A DNA stretch of 64,000 nt. Source: Acidobacteriota bacterium (GTDB lineage: Bacteria; Acidobacteriota; Thermoanaerobaculia; Multivoradales; J023). Below the pieces are notes generated by a model. That model saw only the letters and a program-made list of their open reading frames with translations, was not told the DNA's origin and made no database searches. The translations under genes and the position numbers were made by a program. Location: contig JAJCXO010000043.1 of assembly GCA_029263395.1 (NCBI GenBank), positions 1 through 64,000 on the forward strand. Reading direction: 5' to 3'. Shown piece after piece: positions 1-20,089 of this stretch (its first letter is position 1; every line of letters begins with the position of its first letter).

Positions 1-3
1 CCC

Positions 4-376
4 CCCAGGGTTGACACCCTGGGCTACCGGATGCCGCCCTCCGGGCTCCGGACGGGTCGGGTCGAGCCCCCCCCTCCCAGGGTTGACACCCTGGGCTACC
101 GGATGCCCGCCCTCCGGGCTCAAGATTGGCCCGGCCACCCAGGGTTTACCCCCTGGGCGATGATTGCCTTTGTTTCTGGGAGCCCGGAGGGCGGAATCCG
201 ATAGCCTCGGGTGTAAACCCGTGGCGATGATGGAGTTCGGGCGTAAACCCGTGGCGGATCAGCGTCGGGTGCCGATCTGAACGATGGCGTCGGGTGCCGA
301 TCTGAACCGTGGCGTCGGGCCCCCCTCCCAGGGTTGACACCCTGGGCTACCGGATGCCGCCCTGCGGGCTTCGGAC
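4..376. repeat. Cluster of interspersed two-hairpin repeats (three direct copies plus an inverted block)
   Basis: A unit of about 50 bp appears at 4-53, 76-120 and 327-376. Each copy has two palindromes. The first is CCCAGGGTTGACACCCTGGG (8-bp arms, TGAC loop) and the second is GCCCTCCGGGC, joined by CTACCGGATGCC. A block at 180-228 carries the unit in the opposite orientation, with GCCCGGAGGGC followed by GGGTGTAAACCC. The same family returns at 3670-4047. No gene is supported here. Short open frames in this stretch only read through repeat copies. The layout resembles bacterial REP-type elements, but no RAYT transposase is seen in the window. Confidence 0.85.
262..307. repeat. 21-bp direct repeat, two copies
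   Basis: The sequence GCGTCGGGTGCCGATCTGAAC occurs at 262-282 and 287-307 with a 25-bp period, between copies of the two-hairpin repeat. No function is evident. It may be a remnant of slippage inside the repeat cluster. Confidence 0.75.
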
Positions 377-416
377 CGGACGATCGAGGCGCTCGGGCTT
401 CCTCTGTAAGAGGTTC

Positions 417-425
417 TGGTATAGT
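417..425 (+). promoter_or_regulatory. Extended -10 promoter candidate for the AraC-type regulator
   Basis: TGGTATAGT fits the extended -10 pattern TGnTATAAT at five of six hexamer positions, and sits 30 bp before the ATG at 455. There is no good -35 hexamer at the usual spacing, which extended -10 promoters can tolerate. It starts right after the last repeat copy, so the repeat cluster borders the promoter. Confidence 0.4.
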
Positions 426-454
426 CAAATGTATCAGAAACCGAGGGAGGATCG

Positions 455-1531
455 ATGTTATCGACTCGATTGGAAGCTCTTCGAGACGCTGCTGCGCGTC
501 CGATTCTGGATGGGATCCGTCGAGATCGCGCCCGGGCTCCACGCGAGCTGAAGCCCCTTTTGGCCTATTCTGAAGAGCATCTCTTTGATGTCGATTTCAG
601 CGTTCAGGAGATGAAGCGAGCCTGCCGGGCTCGTGACAACTCGATCGTGACTCGGTTCCGGCGCTTCTTTGGCTCGAGCCCGTCAGACTACGTCAAGGAG
701 TGTCGGCTCGCGGTGGGTGCGGAGCTCCTTCGTGGATCGACTGAAGATGTCTGGAAGATCGCGGAACTTTTGGGGTACAGCTCGCCGCAGCTCTTCGCGA
801 GAAACTTCAAGGAGTCGTTTGGAGCGCCGCCTAGGTCTTACCGCAAGCAACAGGGTCAGGGCGTAGAGGTGGCACCCTTGGGTGCTGAACGTGGGCCCCT
901 TTTGCATGAGCTACGCCAGGCTCTCGATGGTAGCCTCGACCCTGCCCGGGGCGAGGCGCTGATTCAGCACCTCGAAGCCCTGTACCGGCCGAGCAAATCA
1001 GATACCGTTCAGGAGCGCTCTTTGACCGATGGCATCGCGGATGCTCTGCGTTGCCTGCCGCTTGAGAGTGGGCTCGTCCCTGGGCGCGAAGGCCTCGCTG
1101 AAGTTGGGAGGTCAATGTTCGATTTCCTACGCCAGCTGAGCCGTCAGGTTGGTCGCCGCAACCGCCAACTGGGTGTCAGGCTGGCCCAGGTAGCCTTGGC
1201 TAGCTTGGAGGAGAACGCGCAATTACCGGATGACGAGTTGCCCGGTCTCAGATCCTTGGGGTGGGCTTGGGTCGGCAACGCACGGCGGCTAGCACTCGAT
1301 TTTCCGGGTGCCGAGCAAGCGTTCGAGCGTGCGGATGTCGAGTGGAATACAGCAAGAGCACCGCAGAACGATGCGATTAAAGCCGAGATCTGCACTGTCT
1401 TCGGGACCCAGTTGTCAGCTTGGCCAACAGACCCGTCTGAGAGTCGAGGATGGTCAGGTCGGGGAACTCTTGTAACTTATTGTAAAGAGCAGAGCCGGAT
1501 ACCGGCAACAGCGCGCCCAGGGGCCACCTGA
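455..1531 (+). CDS. AraC-type HTH protein with degenerate helical C-terminal region
   Basis: Probable DNA-binding transcriptional regulator of 358 aa. Residues about 48-135 form the double helix-turn-helix of the AraC/XylS family, seen in the stretches IVTRFRRFFGSSPSDYVKEC and IAELLGYSSPQLFARNFKES. There is no N-terminal cupin or other sensor, so the order is inverted relative to typical AraC proteins. The remainder is helical and resembles a TPR-like region, but it ends abruptly. The last 40 residues are rich in S, R, G and T and unlike what precedes them, which suggests a frameshift or truncation near 1410. The start has a GGGAGG Shine-Dalgarno 4 bp upstream. The target and inducer cannot be read from the sequence. 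Confidence 0.75.
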   Translation: MLSTRLEALRDAAARPILDGIRRDRARAPRELKPLLAYSEEHLFDVDFSVQEMKRACRARDNSIVTRFRRFFGSSPSDYVKECRLAVGAELLRGSTEDVWKIAELLGYSSPQLFARNFKESFGAPPRSYRKQQGQGVEVAPLGAERGPLLHELRQALDGSLDPARGEALIQHLEALYRPSKSDTVQERSLTDGIADALRCLPLESGLVPGREGLAEVGRSMFDFLRQLSRQVGRRNRQLGVRLAQVALASLEENAQLPDDELPGLRSLGWAWVGNARRLALDFPGAEQAFERADVEWNTARAPQNDAIKAEICTVFGTQLSAWPTDPSESRGWSGRGTLVTYCKEQSRIPATARPGAT

Positions 1532-2079
1532 GCGCGGCTGTGTCGGCCAGCAAGCGACGGGTCAGTTTTGCACCTCATAGCCGAAGGGGCCGAGTAGGAT
1601 TTCTATTTGGGCGGCTCTTGCGAATAGGCAAGAAGCACAGAGATCGCTGCCACAGCTAGTCTTTCGATCTTGGTTCCGAAAGACAAGTCGCATGTCATCA
1701 TCTCCGGACCTTCAAGGCCTGACCAAAAGAGTTTCCTAGAGGATCGATGTAGGGGCCGACAGCCGCAGGCTCAGCGGCCTTGGAAACTACCCCTAGCGGA
1801 TCGATGTAGGGACTGAATGATGGATACATAGCCTCACTCCTTCCGAGGCACGTCATCGCCATGCCACAACGGCTTAGCCCGCGTGCTCTATTTGGAGCCA
1901 GCTTACCGCTGATTCAGAGACCGAGTTCAGAGCTGTAGGCACATCTGCCTAGGAATTTCCCAGATGCACAGGACCATCGAATGGGGCCTGAGTGGGCATA
2001 CTGCGTTGGTGCTGGGCGCGGCCCAGGCACTGCCGCAATTTGCTCCAATTAGCCCTGACCGATGAGGGAACCAGGATCG
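1532..2079. other. Intergenic region with a 20-bp direct repeat
   Basis: No convincing gene is seen in these 548 bp. The notable content is a near-perfect direct repeat: CCTAGAGGATCGATGTAGGG at 1735-1754 and CCTAGCGGATCGATGTAGGG at 1792-1811 (19 of 20 identical, 57-bp period). The 5' part may hold decayed sequence of the preceding regulator gene, but no continuation could be recognised in any frame. Confidence 0.6.
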
Positions 2080-2637
2080 ATGACCGACCCATCAACCATC
2101 TCCCAAGACCTTCTCACGCTGGAAGACGTGGCACTGCTCGCCGACGGTGCGGATAGCCTGCCGACCTCCACCAAGCAGCGTTTGCGCCAGCTGGTATTGC
2201 AAGATCCCCGTTTCAGTCTTCACCTGGAGCAGCTCGAAGGGCTGGCACAAGAGGCCGGGCTCGGTGAAAGCCAAGATCGCTTGGGAGCGGCGCTGCTGGT
2301 CCATGGCCACTACCAGCAGCTCGAAAAGGCCGAGGGCTGGGAACATCCCGCCGAGGTGCTCGACCCGGATGGCACCATCGGCGTTCTTCACCGGGAGCTG
2401 CTCCACATCGCTCGCGTTCGCGCCCGTGGTGAGAAGACTGGGCGGTCCGCCGACATCCTGCGCAAGCTCGACGCCGCCTGGGCGGAGGAGCAGCGGCGCG
2501 ACGAGTTTGCCACCGGCTTCGTGACACGGCTGCTGGATTTTGATCCAGCGGAAGCCGAGCTGCTGCTGAGGCGAGTCGGGCAGGAGCTGCGGTGGAGCTT
2601 GCGGCAACGGCAACGGGCAGAAGAGGGGACGACATGA
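2080..2637 (+). CDS. Unknown protein, paralogue of the next gene
   Basis: Acidic, soluble 185-aa protein without signal peptide or membrane segment. I do not recognise its family. Residues about 9-50 (beginning LTLEDVALLADG) align with the start of the downstream protein (LSLFDVAQLLNA), and the C-terminal LLDFDPAEAE...LLRR stretch also has a counterpart there, so the two are likely paralogues. The N-terminal shape is reminiscent of the short helical domain of anti-sigma factors, but the zinc-binding Cys and His are absent and no sigma factor is nearby. The start at 2080 is preferred to the ATG at 2062 because CAGGA lies just upstream. Its stop overlaps an ATGA and the next gene begins 28 bp later, so the pair is probably one operon. 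Confidence 0.6.
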   Translation: MTDPSTISQDLLTLEDVALLADGADSLPTSTKQRLRQLVLQDPRFSLHLEQLEGLAQEAGLGESQDRLGAALLVHGHYQQLEKAEGWEHPAEVLDPDGTIGVLHRELLHIARVRARGEKTGRSADILRKLDAAWAEEQRRDEFATGFVTRLLDFDPAEAELLLRRVGQELRWSLRQRQRAEEGTT

Positions 2638-2665
2638 GCGGCTGGCGATTCAGCAAGGAGCAACG

Positions 2666-3625
2666 ATGAAATCAGCAACCCAACCCGGTGATCAGGAACC
2701 GCTGGAGCCCCCTCTCAGCCTTTTCGATGTAGCCCAGTTGCTGAACGCCATGGACTACAGAATTCCGGCGGTCACTCAAGTTGGCCTCGATACCTGGATG
2801 CGCTCCACCCCGGGCCTCGTTGAGCATCTGCGCGAGATCGAGCAGTTGAAAATAGACGCCGTGGTTTCGGATCCGCGAGAGGCTTACGACACGAAAAAGT
2901 ATCTGGAGCAGCTGTTGGCGGCGGATCCGCGTCAACATCCCGTGCATATCCTCGGTGCCGTCATGCTGGAAGTTTATGGACCGGCGATCGTACGTCTCGC
3001 CCGCTCCCAAGCCGCCCGCGCCGCCGACCCCAGCCGGCTCGAGGCATTGATACAGCGGCTGGAGAAAGCTCTGGGAGAGGTTGGGCCAGCTGGCTACCGT
3101 GCCGCCAAGCTGAAGCCGCCGCCAATGTTGGACAGTCAGTCGGAGGCGGCGCTGGGCAAGCTGGAGCATGCTGGCCTCCAGTGGGGGGTTGGGTTCCCGC
3201 CAGGCATGATCGCGGATCAGCTGGCCTGGCCAGCTGACGCGCCACTCTCGGAGACCGAGTTACGGGCCAAGCTCGAGGAGCTGGTGGTTGAGTTCGAGAC
3301 GGTGTTGGTGCAAAAACGGTCCTTGGTGGAGCGAGCCACAGTTTTACTAGACACCTTACCGGACGCCACGGAGCGGGAGATGGAAGCCGAGGTTCCTCTG
3401 AGTGTCTACGGGTGCCTCAACATTGCCTTGGCTTCGTTTGAGGGTGTGGCCATGGAAGACAGTCTGGCCGAGGTCACGTCGGCGCTTGCCGATACCCCGG
3501 AAAGCCTGAGGGCACAGTGGCTGCGGCGGTTATTGACCGATGTTAGGGGTGAGTTGACCACCGCTCGAGCCGATCAGATATGGGCGACATTTATCGCCAA
3601 CGATGCGTCGTTGTGCCTTGGCTGA
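2666..3625 (+). CDS. Unknown protein, larger paralogue of the preceding gene
   Basis: 319-aa, mainly helical soluble protein of unknown function. The first 60 residues share the pattern DVAxL...P...T...L...HLxxxEQL with the gene upstream. The last 45 residues (ALADTPESLRAQWLRRL) resemble the upstream protein's tail, so an extra middle section of about 130 residues distinguishes this copy. Start choice is firm, with AAGGAG 5 bp before the ATG. The gene ends only about 45 bp before a cluster of two-hairpin repeats. An anti-sigma-like or adaptor role is a guess from the N-terminal shape only. Confidence 0.6.
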   Translation: MKSATQPGDQEPLEPPLSLFDVAQLLNAMDYRIPAVTQVGLDTWMRSTPGLVEHLREIEQLKIDAVVSDPREAYDTKKYLEQLLAADPRQHPVHILGAVMLEVYGPAIVRLARSQAARAADPSRLEALIQRLEKALGEVGPAGYRAAKLKPPPMLDSQSEAALGKLEHAGLQWGVGFPPGMIADQLAWPADAPLSETELRAKLEELVVEFETVLVQKRSLVERATVLLDTLPDATEREMEAEVPLSVYGCLNIALASFEGVAMEDSLAEVTSALADTPESLRAQWLRRLLTDVRGELTTARADQIWATFIANDASLCLG

Positions 3626-3669
3626 AGATGCCACGGGAGATCCGCCACCCAGAGAGTGCCGGACCCCCA

Positions 3670-4047
3670 CCCAGGGTTTCCACCCTGGGCAACCGGATGC
3701 CGCCCTCCGGGCTTGAAGACCCCCGAATCCACCCCCGACCCAGGGTTTACACCCGTGGCGATGATTGAGCTTGTTCCCAAAACCTCTGTTTCTGGGAGCC
3801 CGGAGGGCGGAATCCGGTAGCCTCGGGTGTGAACCCGTGGCGATGATTGAGCTCGTCTCCCCTGCCCCCAGGGTTTCCATCCTGGGCAACCGGATGCCGC
3901 CCTCCGGGCTCCGGACCGGACCCCACCCCCTCCCAGGGTTTCCACCCTGGGCAACCGGATGCCGCCCTCCGGGCTCCGGATCGGTCGGACCCTCTCCCCG
4001 GGTTGACACCCTGGGCTACCGGATGCCGCCCTCCGGGCTCCGGACCG
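3670..4047. repeat. Second cluster of the interspersed two-hairpin repeat
   Basis: Direct copies begin at about 3670, 3867, 3932 and 3996. Each has the CCCAGGGTTTCCACCCTGGG-type hairpin, the link ACCGGATGCC and the GCCCTCCGGGC hairpin. A mixed block at about 3736-3840 holds an inverted copy, with GCCCGGAGGGC then GGGTGTGAACCC. Copies differ mainly in the loop (TGAC or TTCC) and in CTACC versus CAACC. The cluster fills the space between two plus-strand genes. Open frames running through it are artefacts of repeat composition. Confidence 0.85.
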
Positions 4048-4166
4048 GTGGTCAAGTCGGTCTCCGCCCCTCTAGAGGGTTTGGATCCAAGACCCAGGCG
4101 TCAGCGTCATCCTACAAATTTGTCCTACAACGGATGAGACTCGTCGGGTTATACTCCGTCCCGATC

Positions 4167-6029
4167 ATGGAAAAACTCAACGCGACGCGCCGTACCGGCC
4201 ATGATGGCTGGTGTCTTCCTTCTCTTCTCGTTGTGGCCAGCTTCGTGCTGGTCAACGGTGTGGCCTCCGCTGGAGGTGTCACGCCGAACGGTACCCAGCC
4301 GGGTCTCACCCACCCTATTCTCGAGCCGATGAATTGTCAGCTCTGCCATGGCGAGTACGACGACGACAACAATATCGAGCCGTACCCAACCTGGTCTGGA
4401 TCGATGATGGCCAACTCGGCCCGCGACCCGTTGTTCTGGGCCGCCCTCGACGTCGCCAACAATGACGCGCCGGGTATCGGTGATCTCTGCCTGCGCTGCC
4501 ACACCCCGTCGGCATGGTTGGCCGGACGTTCGGAGCCACCGGCTGGGAGCGTTGATGGCTGTGGTTTGATCGGCAACCTCGACGAACCGAACAACGATTT
4601 CGACGGCGTCAGCTGCCATCTGTGCCATCGTATGATGGTCAATGAGACCCCGCCTGCCGGGCAGGAAGAAGTCTATTTCCAGAACGCGTCGTTCTGGATC
4701 GACGACGAGGATTGCACCACCCCGGGCTCGGGTCCGTGCCGGCGCGGTCCCTACGACTACGAGCCTGGCGTCGGTGAGCCGCCGCATCAGTGGGAGTTTT
4801 CGGACTACCACGTCGCCTCTGATATTTGCGGCAACTGTCACAACATCACCAGCCCGCTGCTGACGCTGATCGACCAGAACGGTGACGACACCGGCCTGCC
4901 GTATCCGATCGAGCGGACGTTCAAGGAATGGCAGCAGAGCGACTATGCCTTACCTGACGGCAATGGCAACAGTGTGCAGAGTTGCCAAAATTGCCACATG
5001 CCGGACGCGACGGAAGATCCGGCGTTCGCCTGTGTGTTCCAGGAAAACAACCGCACCAGCGATATGCCCGTCCATCAGTTTGCGGGTGGTAATGCCTGGG
5101 TTCCAGAGGTACTGAAGAACGAATATCCCGCGCTCGATCGGGACGAGGCGTTTGATGCCACCGTCGCTTGGGCCTTCGACTTGCTGCAGAACCGTTCGGC
5201 GGTTGTCGAGGTCGTCGCCGATGAACAGGTGGCGCCGGGCGAGATGCTGGGTGTTGCGGTGCGGGTGACCAATCTCACCGGCCACAAGCTGCCGACGGGT
5301 TATACCGAAGGACGGCGGGTGTGGCTCAATGTCCAGGCGCGTGATGCCGAGGGCAATTTGTTCTGGGAGAGTGGCGCCTACGATTCCGCCACCGGCGTGC
5401 TGACCGAGGATGACCAGGTCAAAATTTACCAGGCGAAGCCGGGAATCTGGAACTCCAACGGCACCATGGAGTGTGACACCACCGACGCCATGGGCCGGCC
5501 CGAGTTCCACTTTGTGCTGAACAATTGTTGGTCGTCGGACAACCGGATTCCGCCACTTGGCTTCACCGGTGGTGACGACATCGAGACCCGGCCGGTGGGT
5601 TATACCTATCCCGAAACCGCTCCCGGCTCGGGCATCTTGGTCAACTACGATCTCACCGACTATGCGATCCCGGTACCGTTCAACACGCCGCTACCGCTCA
5701 CCGTCGAAGCGACCCTCAACTACCAGACGATGAGCAAGGAATACGTCGAGTTCTTGCGCGATCAGGCGATCGAAAATGACTTTCCAGACGATTGCCTACC
5801 GCGCAGCACCGGTTTAACCGGGATGAGCCGCGGCGAGTTTCTCTACGACTTGTGGGAACGTTACGATCGATCACCCCCGGTCCCGATGGCCGGCGCGTTG
5901 GTGGGAGTTGATGGCTCGGCGCTCGAAATCCCCACCGTCTCACCGGCGGGTCTAGTGCTGCTCGCGGGCGGGTTGTTGGTGGTCGGTTTCCGGCGGTTGC
6001 GTCGGCGGTCGAACGATCTCGAAGGATGA
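4167..6029 (+). CDS. Secreted multihaem c-type cytochrome with C-terminal sorting-type signal
   Basis: 620-aa exported electron-transfer protein. Residues 1 to about 36 form a Sec signal peptide ending in VASAGG. Five CxxCH haem sites are visible: CQLCH, CLRCH, CHLCH, CGNCH and CQNCH, all in the first half. The second half (from about residue 345) has no haem motifs and looks beta-rich. The tail reads EIPTVSPAGLVLLAGGLL followed by an RRLRRR cluster, the proline-hydrophobic-arginine layout of IPTL/PEP-CTERM sorting signals. The ATG at 4167 is chosen because the signal peptide follows directly; 4134 is an in-frame alternative. The frame is also open into the repeats upstream, which is not coding. 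Its 3' end overlaps the convergent gene by 78 bp. Redox partner unknown. Confidence 0.85.
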   Translation: MEKLNATRRTGHDGWCLPSLLVVASFVLVNGVASAGGVTPNGTQPGLTHPILEPMNCQLCHGEYDDDNNIEPYPTWSGSMMANSARDPLFWAALDVANNDAPGIGDLCLRCHTPSAWLAGRSEPPAGSVDGCGLIGNLDEPNNDFDGVSCHLCHRMMVNETPPAGQEEVYFQNASFWIDDEDCTTPGSGPCRRGPYDYEPGVGEPPHQWEFSDYHVASDICGNCHNITSPLLTLIDQNGDDTGLPYPIERTFKEWQQSDYALPDGNGNSVQSCQNCHMPDATEDPAFACVFQENNRTSDMPVHQFAGGNAWVPEVLKNEYPALDRDEAFDATVAWAFDLLQNRSAVVEVVADEQVAPGEMLGVAVRVTNLTGHKLPTGYTEGRRVWLNVQARDAEGNLFWESGAYDSATGVLTEDDQVKIYQAKPGIWNSNGTMECDTTDAMGRPEFHFVLNNCWSSDNRIPPLGFTGGDDIETRPVGYTYPETAPGSGILVNYDLTDYAIPVPFNTPLPLTVEATLNYQTMSKEYVEFLRDQAIENDFPDDCLPRSTGLTGMSRGEFLYDLWERYDRSPPVPMAGALVGVDGSALEIPTVSPAGLVLLAGGLLVVGFRRLRRRSNDLEG

Positions 6030-12104: not shown

Positions 12105-12136
12105 TTCGGACTCAGAGGACCTAGTTCGAACCTCTT

Positions 12137-12152
12137 AGTCCCGTCAGGGACT
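12137..12152. terminator. Hairpin between convergent genes
   Basis: AGTCCC at 12137-12142 pairs with GGGACT at 12147-12152 around GTCA, followed by TTAT on the plus strand. It sits between the stop of the VWA gene and the TAA of the minus-strand TPR gene, and could end transcription from the plus side. The stem is short. Confidence 0.5.
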
Positions 12153-13796
12153 TTATCGCTGAGCGAGGGATTTCAACCCCGCGTGGTGCTCAGCGAGCTT
12201 GGCGTAGGCTGCGTAGGCTTCGGCCGCTTCGTCGCGACGCCCCAGGTGGTCGAGTAGGCTGGCCAGGTTTTGCCACGCTCCGCTGGACGTCGGCTCGAGC
12301 TCGACGGCGGAGCGGTAGGCGGCGAGGGCGTCTTCGAAGCGACCGCGCTGGCCGAGGCTGTTGGCGAGGCTGAACCAGGCGAAGGCTCTCTCGCGATCCG
12401 GTAGATTGAGCTCGAGCGCACGTTGCCAATGGGGCAGGGCGTCTTTGCCCAGGCCTTGGAGCGCGGTGGCGAGCCGCAGCCGTGCTCTGCCGTCGTCAGG
12501 ATAGAGTTCCACGAGGTGGCGGAGATCCGGTAAGGCTTCGCCGAATTGCTGAAGGTCGACGAGGGCGGTGGCACGTTTGAGCAGAATCTCGTGATCTTCC
12601 GGTTCAGCTTCTAGGTCGTGGTTTTCTAGGGCGTGGTTTTCGAGGACGTGGTTGTAGTGGTCGAGCGCTGCTTGGTAGTTCCCAGATTCCGCGAGGGCAT
12701 CGCCGAGTCGGACCGCAGCCGGCCAGAGCTCGGGTTCGAGTTCGAGGGCGGCGCGGAGATGCGGGATGCCGTCCGCTGTTTGGTTGCGTTGCATCAGCAG
12801 GGCGCCGATCACATGATGCAGACGAGCCCTCGTCGCATGATCACCAGCAAAGCCATCGAGCATTTGCTCGAGATCGGCCGTCGCTCGTCCGACGTCGCCT
12901 AGCTTGGAGAGCGCAAAACCGACAAGATCGTCGCTCGAGAGCTGCGAATCGGCCGCCATGTCGATCACCACCTCGGTTGCGGTTGCCGAGGCCAGCTGGC
13001 TGACCTCGTCGAGCAGCGGATCGGCAAACGCCACCGGGCGCTCGGCCCGTCGTTCGAGGTGGTGTCGTGCCTGGTCGAGCTGGCCGAGTTGGCGATAGCT
13101 GTGCCCCAGAGCATGGTGGACAACGCTATCGTCCGGCAGCAGGGTGATCGCACGTTTGAAGTGGTTGATGGCGATGGGGTGATCACCTCGGGCTGCGGCG
13201 GTTCGACCGAGACCCTGAAGGGCAGCAGCATGGATGGCATCGATCTCGAGCGCCCGTGTAAAGGCGGCTTCGGCTTCTTGAGTCAGGCCCAGTGCCATCA
13301 GCGAACGCCCGAGGCGGATCCGCGTCGCCAGGACGGTCGGATCGGTTGGATGTTTCGGGTTGCTCAAACTCAGTGTCTCGACCCGTTCGAAACTGTCGAC
13401 CGCAGCCTCGAGGTCGCCGCGTTGTTGGCGGAGGACACCGAGCAAGTAGTGCCAGGTGCGACTGTCAGGTTCGAGCTGCCGCGCATGGTCGAAGCAGGCC
13501 TCAGCAGCCTCTGGGAAGGTGTAGGCCATGTAGGCGCGGCCGAGAGCGCCTAATCCAGCCGCTCGTCGAACAGGCTCGGCATCAACTCCGGCGTTCTCCA
13601 CCTCAGCCCGCAAGTCCTCGAGCTGGCGACGGGCCGTCTCCTCCATCGCGCCGAGGTCGGGATGCGGAATCTCGACCAAAGCAGCTGTCGGCTGGCTCGT
13701 CGACGGAGCGCAAGTGGTCAGCAGGGTTGCCATCAGCAGGGTTGCCATCAGTAGGGCAGCCAGCACTGGCGTCGACCGGCGAGCGAGCGCATTCAC
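12153..13796 (-). CDS. TPR-repeat lipoprotein
   Basis: 547-aa protein made mostly of tetratricopeptide repeats, for example AFTRALEIDAIHAAALQGLG and AALELEPELWPAAVRLGDAL. The N-terminus is a lipoprotein signal, with LLTTC as lipobox at about residue 29. It contains an in-frame duplication (LLMAT twice) caused by a 15-bp repeat in the DNA. It is probably anchored in a membrane and acts as a scaffold. The GTG start overlaps the TGA of the upstream FG-GAP gene by 4 bp, so translation is likely coupled. This is the third gene of a minus-strand operon with the FG-GAP lipoprotein and the M28 peptidase. Confidence 0.85.
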   Translation of the reverse strand: MNALARRSTPVLAALLMATLLMATLLTTCAPSTSQPTAALVEIPHPDLGAMEETARRQLEDLRAEVENAGVDAEPVRRAAGLGALGRAYMAYTFPEAAEACFDHARQLEPDSRTWHYLLGVLRQQRGDLEAAVDSFERVETLSLSNPKHPTDPTVLATRIRLGRSLMALGLTQEAEAAFTRALEIDAIHAAALQGLGRTAAARGDHPIAINHFKRAITLLPDDSVVHHALGHSYRQLGQLDQARHHLERRAERPVAFADPLLDEVSQLASATATEVVIDMAADSQLSSDDLVGFALSKLGDVGRATADLEQMLDGFAGDHATRARLHHVIGALLMQRNQTADGIPHLRAALELEPELWPAAVRLGDALAESGNYQAALDHYNHVLENHALENHDLEAEPEDHEILLKRATALVDLQQFGEALPDLRHLVELYPDDGRARLRLATALQGLGKDALPHWQRALELNLPDRERAFAWFSLANSLGQRGRFEDALAAYRSAVELEPTSSGAWQNLASLLDHLGRRDEAAEAYAAYAKLAEHHAGLKSLAQR

Positions 13797-19558: not shown

Positions 19559-19666
19559 GTCGCCGTTCGGATTGAAGCGACTGTTGGACTGCGGATTTGA
19601 GATGACCTAGGACATCGTCCCCTAAGTTCTGTCCGGGTTCAGCCAGCAAGAATCGAACAAGGCCCT

Positions 19667-19910
19667 GGCCCCGTAGGGGCCGAATCGTATAGCCCGGGGC
19701 TGGCGTCGCGGAGCCCCAGCGACGCGGCGTGAGCCCCGGGTTTGCGGATCCCGTCTCCCGCCGCCCTGGAGGGGCGGGACATGGCGCCAACTGGTCGAGG
19801 TTGCGCCTCTACAGGGCGCGGCAGGCTGGTGGCAGAGACCCCGGGGCTCGCACGGCGTCGCTACGCTCCTTGTGCGGCCCCGGGCTATACGATTGCGCCC
19901 TTTCAGGGCG
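19667..19910. mobile_element. MITE-like element with 18-bp inverted repeats
   Basis: AATCGTATAGCCCGGGGC at 19683-19700 is matched by its perfect reverse complement at 19877-19894. Outside these arms lie small terminal hairpins: GGCCCC/GGGGCC at 19667-19681 and CGCCC/GGGCG at 19896-19910. The interior (about 175 bp) has more short GC hairpins and no transposase. The element, about 244 bp, lies immediately downstream of the truncated PIN-like reading frame. It fits the definition of a non-autonomous miniature element. No clear target-site duplication was found. Confidence 0.7.
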
Positions 19911-19945
19911 AGATCTAGGCGCTTTGAGGCAATACGCTCTTTAAG

Positions 19946-20089
19946 GGCAGTCCATGCGAGGACTTTCGGATCTGCGGCGCCGAATACGTCAGAATCTTGG
20001 ACGCGGATCACGTCGAGCCGAGGTTCCTTGCGGAGTAGTCCTCGGACGATTCGACCGTTGAAGTCTTCGTCCGCAGCCAACCGAATCAT
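19946..20089 (-). pseudogene. Truncated DUF5615 PIN-like toxin gene
   Basis: The first 48 codons from the ATG at 20089 read MIRLAADEDFNGRIVRGLLR and then VIRVQDSDVFGAADPKVLAW. This is the N-terminal pattern of DUF5615 PIN-like proteins, with the Asp-Glu-Asp-Phe-Asn metal-site segment. The remaining half, including the usual LLTHD segment, is missing. The frame instead runs into repeat-derived sequence (ALKERI..ALKGRN) and the MITE-like element. The gene is therefore broken. An open stretch of about 28 codons ends with TGA three bases before this ATG and may be the tail of a former partner gene. Confidence 0.6.

Follow-up and report, generated by a model that had tools for sequence, protein, structure and literature searches.

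Two-Hairpin Repeats of an Acidobacteriota Genome as Probable REP-Like Copies of the Ends of a Y1 Transposon

The window analysed here comprises the first 64,000 nucleotides of contig JAJCXO010000043.1 from an Acidobacteriota bacterium (assembly GCA_029263395.1) and contains two clusters of a GC-rich repeat in which every element is made of two hairpins. We conclude that these repeats are very probably REP-like DNA (REP: repetitive extragenic palindrome), namely copies of the terminal elements of a Y1 (HUH) single-strand transposon with an IS200-like enzyme of subclass 1.2. An initial annotation, made from the letters of the window alone, had offered a REP-like element with a transposase encoded elsewhere as one of two guesses. 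This guess is supported by a Y1 transposase gene that lies between inverted copies of the element on another contig, and by the recurrence of this link in many phyla. The guess can be sharpened to enzyme subclass 1.2, but the enzyme is not a canonical REP-associated tyrosine transposase (RAYT), and part of the genomes that carry the element have no matching gene. The repeats belong to the same sequence-structure family as Rfam RF01687 (Acido-Lenti-1; Rfam type: Gene; sRNA, that is, small RNA): three window copies exceed the curated cut-off (37 bits), and seven further matches fall below it.

Results

Transposase genes between inverted repeats

A Y1_Tnp search of the same genome identified a Y1/HUH transposase gene (C132:81266-81604; C numbers denote contigs) between two inverted RF01687 matches of the same subfamily. 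One of the two flanking copies is identical to window positions 4-50 over 47 nt. C282 and C30 each carry another complete gene, likewise enclosed by a pair of inverted two-hairpin repeats of its own, with 100% complementarity over 59 nt and 96% over 57 nt, respectively. All three encoded proteins carry the motifs DHVH, WQ, and Y---Q--HH. Alignment points to Y114 as the presumed catalytic tyrosine of the C132 enzyme. From these three proteins we built a profile (A1; match at E 1e-8). Two further A1-matching genes in this genome (C46 and C140) are incomplete and stand near such two-hairpin repeats. On C140 (L046, about 2541-2840), the transposase match covers the first 86 of 151 profile positions, and an inverted repeat arm starts near the point at which the match ends. 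Tandem repeats are also found near these genes, with a period of 41-42 nt at C46 (L045 2671-2795) and C30 (L044 3955-4112), and of 82 nt at C140 (L046 2080-2400).

The enzyme passes the NCBIfam IS200 model with 66 bits (cut-off 55), and the nearest protein of solved structure is 2a6m (E 1.1e-6). With the NCBIfam model REP_Tyr_transpos it reaches 20.9 bits, far below the cut-off of 80. The check for a Y1 or RAYT gene suggested in the initial annotation therefore has a mixed outcome: a Y1/HUH gene does lie between copies of the element, but it is IS200-like and not a canonical RAYT. Quentin et al. 2018 characterize subclass 1.2 by the motifs DH[IV]H, WQ, and Y---Q--HH and a length of about 150 aa. 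By these motifs, the enzyme lineage described here appears to match that subclass, which is tabulated there with REP "no" and described as being without insertion sequence (IS) properties.

Co-occurrence of repeat and enzyme

Within the phylum, RF01687 was found in 35 of 149 genomes (the genome under study included) and in none of 14 control genomes. An A1 match is present in 25 of the 35 RF01687-positive genomes as opposed to 7 of the 114 negative ones, two of these seven being weak (Fisher p 2e-14). Leaving out the genome that supplied the query gives 24 of 34. Inverted repeats with a score of at least 14 accompany 38 of 49 transposase loci of the phylum (C30 and C282 included; one of 50 was dropped). 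One locus (L192) and five near-identical loci of one genome (G087), at 26-30% identity, all have inverted-repeat scores below 14.

For a wider view we examined 80 loci, the best 80 of at least 443 transposase relatives in named genomes, with flanks of up to 2500 nt where the contig allows. Most of these loci are from other phyla; their titles name Planctomycetota, Verrucomicrobiota, Acidobacteria, Bacteroidota, Proteobacteria, a Victivallales, and others. At the gathering score, 56 RF01687 matches occur in 21 of these loci; in all 21, the nearest match lies no more than 200 nt from the gene. This zone holds 32 of the 56 matches in 9% of the flank bases; the farthest match is 969 nt away. Inverted repeats (score at least 14) bracket 68 of 78 genes, two of the 80 loci with short flanks having been left out. 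The same score is reached by 20 of 379 mismatched flank pairings, a control that is probably inflated because these pairings include related loci, and by none of 141 shifted windows. The locus proteins carry the DHVH-type motif in 78 of 80 cases, WQ in 76, Y---Q--HH in 75, and YxxxNP in one.

The association is specific to this enzyme lineage. A unit composed of hairpin A, NTAG, and hairpin B adjoins 52 of the 80 genes. It adjoins none of the 13 other Y1 genes of the same genome and none of 19 Y1 genes (approximate gene positions, ten other genomes) in RF01687-positive genomes without an A1 match, and it is absent from 59.6 kb of window background. Applied to the window, this strict unit test detects just five units. 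Among 30 whole genomes traced from transposase loci, 19 chosen for a locus hit and 11 for breadth, 26 contain RF01687, with up to 103 matches. One 1.1-Mb genome titled Candidatus Magasanikbacteria (L127/G158) has 29 RF01687 matches, and nine of those listed score 55.8 bits each. In Roseimaritima sediminicola (L169; 103 matches), runs of RF01687 matches spaced at 98-100 nt flank the transposase gene on either side. Three loci (L167, L175, and L183) come from metagenome-assembled records titled Klebsiella pneumoniae and Akkermansia muciniphila, and these bins may be mislabelled.

Architecture of the ends

A common layout is found in the flanking arms. NTAG stands at the 5' foot of the strongest hairpin within the nearest 200 nt in 31 of 75 upstream and 33 of 76 downstream arms on the expected strand, as compared to 4 of 75 and 3 of 76 on the other strand and 0 of 128 controls. 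Read from the outside inward on the strand opposite to that of Rfam, a typical end opens with the outer hairpin A. After about 8 nt comes TAG, the foot of hairpin B, and some 22 nt further in, an inner hairpin adjoins the gene. The spacer to TAG measures 8 nt (interquartile range, IQR, 8-9 and 7-9), and the distance from hairpin B to the inner hairpin is 22 or 21 nt (IQR 20-24 and 20-23). This order is found in 38 of 80 and 33 of 78 arms, on the other strand in 6 of 80 and 6 of 78, in 1 of 294 controls, and in 0 of 158 shuffles.

The same architecture is seen in pairs of elements that enclose no gene. In three genomes (G140, G160, and G170), 33 of 34 close pairs among the matches listed (88, 33, and 14) are inverted in one sense, nearly all of them 98-124 nt apart. 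The window contains one such pair at 19664-19913 with a gap of 99 nt. In the gene-less units of G160 (14 of 16 halves parsed), the linker after hairpin B is 22.1 +/- 0.9 nt long with 42% pairwise identity, versus 86% in hairpin B itself; in G170 (7 of 8 halves parsed), it is 25.0 +/- 0.9 nt long with 28% identity versus 69%. Since the length of the linker is kept while its sequence drifts, we infer that it accommodates a protein complex of fixed geometry. G140 (L229-L248) has about 97 RF01687 matches, with inverted pairs that contain an inner hairpin pair and have partly shared flanks, so the repeat there is longer than the pair.

The boundaries of a unit could be read in one genome. In Planctomycetota FR_29, two loci have 729 nt in common, at 88%, within different flanks. 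On the downstream side, the common stretch stops precisely where the repeat has its outer end; on the upstream side, it starts 7 nt outside the arm. The flanks contain no other long match. Among the pairs of sister-genome transposase loci compared in one genus, the element is common to both members but long flanks are not. Hence, only the same-genome duplicate in FR_29 speaks for movement.

Stem conservation and spread in the genome

The element unit is 47 nt long. An eight-pair hairpin with a loop of four bases is followed by a conserved GGCWA, a spacer, and a short second hairpin, which confirms the two GC-rich hairpins first seen in the window. DNA folds of single copies gave z = -1.18 for the copy at 3993 and z = -2.53 for the one at 1. 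For the stems, we compared 27 elements from this genome (25 distinct, two subfamilies) with 500 shuffles. Standard pairs fill 98.3% of 300 pair cells versus 85.7% in the shuffles, and two-sided changes affect 36 cells versus 8.2; none of the 500 shuffles reaches either value. Pairing drops to at most 58% when the partner strand is slid along. Two cruder measures on the same 27 elements show no excess: pairs with two-sided change (6 versus 4.9; 155 of 500 shuffles reach it) and further pair types (10 versus 11.1; 446 of 500). Compensatory changes are thus present in the stems, and the initial claim that the stems stay paired is correct in the main, but the copy at 3996 has one broken pair, and so does each of the inverted copies. 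In the inverted copies, the pair next to the broken one has changed from A-T to C-G.

Nor is the family limited to the window. We reject such confinement because copies occur throughout the 10.68-Mb genome: at least 65 regions match R1, a covariance model made from the 27 elements (the nine full window copies included), and the pattern of spacer plus hairpin A occurs 29 times with at most three mismatches, as compared to once for a backward control, which speaks against chance. Copy counts are lower bounds, with 150 of 6372 candidates scored with R1 in this genome, 150 of 2170 in the other scan of it, and 38 per genome in the phylum survey. Contigs C43, C82, C132, and C274 start or end in a copy or a few bases from one, as expected of assembly breaks at repeats.

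Discussion

A possible mode of action

The data above establish association, specificity, end architecture, and wide spread, as well as unit boundaries at the repeat ends in one genome. Binding, cleavage, mobilisation, strand choice, and present activity are argued here by analogy. TnpA-REP enzymes cut single-stranded REPs at CT, recognizing them by the GTAG foot, which in one case also acts as guide; IS608 selects its sites by pairing with guide tetranucleotides (PMC8266576). By the same logic as in REP/TnpA-REP and IS608, the subclass 1.2 enzyme would bind folded hairpins on single-stranded DNA. Hairpins A and B would form a single-strand end complex with NTAG as guide; the far end of the transposon is an inverted copy of the near end. 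The enzyme might then cut near the complementary CTAN of the inverted partner and rejoin the strand. Whole units, gene-less inverted pairs, or single elements could be copied around the genome in this manner. The window clusters would then represent non-autonomous copies, with the C132 gene as their likeliest source.

Comparison with known single-strand transposons

A combination of REP-like elements with a Y1 enzyme is a kind already known. Within the literature searched, three points appear to be new: that this enzyme lineage has such elements, how the ends are built, and what the Rfam family represents. Class 2 REPs and REPtrons with RAYT (PMC6006769, PMC8266576) resemble the present system by the Y1 gene, the inverted flanking hairpins, the foot, and the presence of dispersed copies and dimers. 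The GT[AG]G-type foot of class 2 REPs recurs here as NTAG, and bracketing and dispersal are found as well. The systems differ in the enzyme, which by its motifs belongs here to a subclass tabulated without REP, and in the element, whose two hairpins are joined by a third, inner one at near-fixed spacing. TIRtrons (TIRYT: tyrosine transposase with terminal inverted repeats; PMC3733652) likewise hold a Y1 gene between terminal inverted repeats, some of them doubly palindromic and some dispersed in the genome, and Acidobacteria are included; the published ones belong to subclasses 2.1, 2.2, and 2.5, and their motif GGGGWSAS is rare here. REPINs (Bertels and Rainey 2011, PMC3116915) are gene-less inverted pairs of elements. 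Two inverted elements form the unit here too, but each half consists of hairpin A, hairpin B, and the inner hairpin, and the gap is about 100 nt in the three genomes and in the window. IS200/IS605 elements such as IS608 and ISDra2 supply the nearest solved proteins and the model that the enzyme passes. The two ends of an IS200/IS605 element are not known to be inverted copies of each other, whereas the ends described here are. The protein motifs also differ, with WQ and Y---Q--HH here and W[TS] and Y[IV]ENQ there.

On balance, we lean towards regarding subclass 1.2 with its three-hairpin ends as a separate kind of single-strand transposon, of which the Rfam small RNA family would be the DNA footprint. 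What would set it apart from IS200/IS605 and RAYT/REP are the inverted ends, the near-constant spacers, and a longer spacer that drifts in sequence. In this view, the gene-less unit would be built in the same way, with a short loop in the place of the gene.

Weighing the evidence

Several observations weigh against the transposon interpretation. The foot reads AAAG at C282, CCAG at C30, and GTTG in three of the nine full window copies instead of NTAG. The flank copies at C132 are turned opposite to the commoner arrangement, and the strict unit test is passed by only one of the five A1-matching genes of this genome. RF01687 reaches its cut-off in only 21 of the 80 loci and is absent from 4 of the 11 genomes chosen for breadth (present in 7). 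It covers only part of the superfamily, since four Proteobacteria genomes have no match and their loci are mostly bracketed. The counts for DHVH and WQ arise partly by construction because both were in the scan patterns; Y---Q--HH was not. The A1 profile derives from the same genome as the repeats, and 10 of the 35 RF01687-positive genomes of the phylum have no A1 match. Three of these ten (G036, G041, and G140) have no Y1_Tnp match at all; two of the three are 99% complete, and G036 holds 31 RF01687 matches. Genomes of this type may harbour orphan populations left by gene loss. Many E. coli strains are described as carrying orphan REPs after such loss.

These orphan copies would also suit the Rfam typing, by which the element is a structured small RNA that every locus produces and that acts in trans. 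Weinberg et al. 2010 (PMC2864571) list the family as probably RNA and not cis-regulatory. A 2026 paper states that little is known of the function of Acido-Lenti-1, and it was lately proposed as a possible regulator of protease genes (PMC13298647). The two-sided stem changes agree with an RNA, but they are also expected of folded single-stranded DNA. Against a small RNA stand the tandem and inverted clusters, the proximity to one transposase lineage, and the conserved foot on the opposite strand. In the Rfam model, the first stem is followed by CUA, to which the TAG foot is complementary; the strand that acts is therefore probably not that of Rfam. No promoter-like site was found inside the two clusters. 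Terminator-like sites number 4 versus 2.6 in shuffles over positions 1-4300, and one (155-169) falls in the first cluster. Taken together, we regard a trans-acting RNA as highly improbable. No printed link between Acido-Lenti-1 and a transposase was found in the open literature searched, with subscription papers outside this search. Acido-Lenti-1 is associated with group II introns; in the 80 transposase loci, only RF01687 and two tRNAs matched at the Rfam gathering score.

The other guess of the initial annotation was an element at the level of mRNA. Such an element would be a terminator, attenuator, or stabiliser that persists because it affects the genes nearby, and its link to the transposase would be secondary. 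Both clusters do lie between predicted genes, and REPs are thought to have such roles (PMC3733652). Nevertheless, no T-run follows the full copies, and we reject terminators because terminator-like sites are not above shuffles. An effect on mRNA also leaves the inverted brackets around transposase genes and the fixed-spacing pairs unexplained. We therefore consider it unlikely as the primary reason for the repeats, although it is possible as a side effect. Least probable of all, to the point of being hardly tenable, are ordinary class 2 RAYT REPs or TIRYT repeats (Di Nocera et al. 2013). With those kinds, the repeats described here share a GTAG foot, copies that bracket the gene, dimers, and clusters, and GGGGWSAS does appear at two places in the second window cluster as well as in the repeats at C282. 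Class 2 RAYT repeats are rejected on the enzyme models (REP_Tyr_transpos far below its cut-off), the protein motifs (Y---Q--HH, and YxxxNP in a single protein), and the specificity, as other Y1 genes do not have the unit. TIRYT repeats are rejected because the 26 published TIRYTs belong to the three subclasses named above, and because GGGGWSAS is rare over the 80 loci (5 of 80 and 3 of 80; other strands 1 of 80 and 4 of 80; control 1 of 74).

If the repeats are copies of transposon ends, as we maintain, an orphan Rfam family that is annotated as noncoding RNA in ordinary genomes gains a concrete identity as transposon DNA on the strand opposite to the Rfam model. Subclass 1.2 gains candidate substrates and a sharp end architecture. 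A third arrangement would stand beside IS200/IS605 and RAYT/REP for asking how single-strand transposases became domesticated. The case also serves as a warning that covarying stems found in RNA searches can be selected as DNA.

Copies in the window

The seven direct copies of 59 nt reported at the outset are all present (starts 1, 73, 324, 3667, 3864, 3929, and 3993), as are the two inverted blocks at about 179-227 and 3795-3843. They form clusters at 4-373 and 3670-4042, and the window starts inside the first of them. Nine full copies score 61.6-74.1 bits with R1, a model that includes them; four matches are weaker (Table 1). Six of the nine full copies have NTAG as foot in the alignment. 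Copies in the direct tandem run (3867-4042) follow one another every 64-65 nt.

Table 1. Two-hairpin elements and related matches in the window (RF01687 cut-off: 37 bits)
Feature	Position	Strand	R1 (bits)	RF01687 (bits)	Remark
Element copy	4..50	+	74.1	39.3	Rfam orientation; GTAG foot on - strand
Element copy	76..123	+	65.8	35.7 (below cut-off)	
Partial element	138..178	+	26.3		Hairpin B region only; repeat family D3
Inverted element copy	178..224	-	61.6	26.1 (below cut-off)	Foot ATAG
Element copy	327..373	+	67.6	38.9	
Element copy	3670..3716	+	63.3	No match	Foot GTTG
Inverted element copy	3794..3840	-	62.2		
Element copy	3867..3913	+	63.5		Foot GTTG; tandem run no. 1
Element copy	3932..3978	+	67.6		Foot GTTG; tandem run no. 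2
Element copy	3996..4042	+	69.6	28.9 (below cut-off)	Foot GTAG; tandem run no. 3
Lone match	12134..12183	-	39.6		Lower score
Left element of REPIN-like inverted pair	19664..19740	-	29.5	22.3 (below cut-off)	Long-loop hairpin B subfamily
Right element of inverted pair	19840..19913	+	34.1	37.8	99 nt from partner

A reading frame of 155 aa (19622-20089, - strand) spans both elements of the inverted pair at 19664-19913. It has no Pfam match; the pair may have split a gene, or the frame may not be a gene at all. Short direct repeats (25 nt), in two copies each, lie at 262-311 and 1735-1816 and are unrelated to the two-hairpin element.

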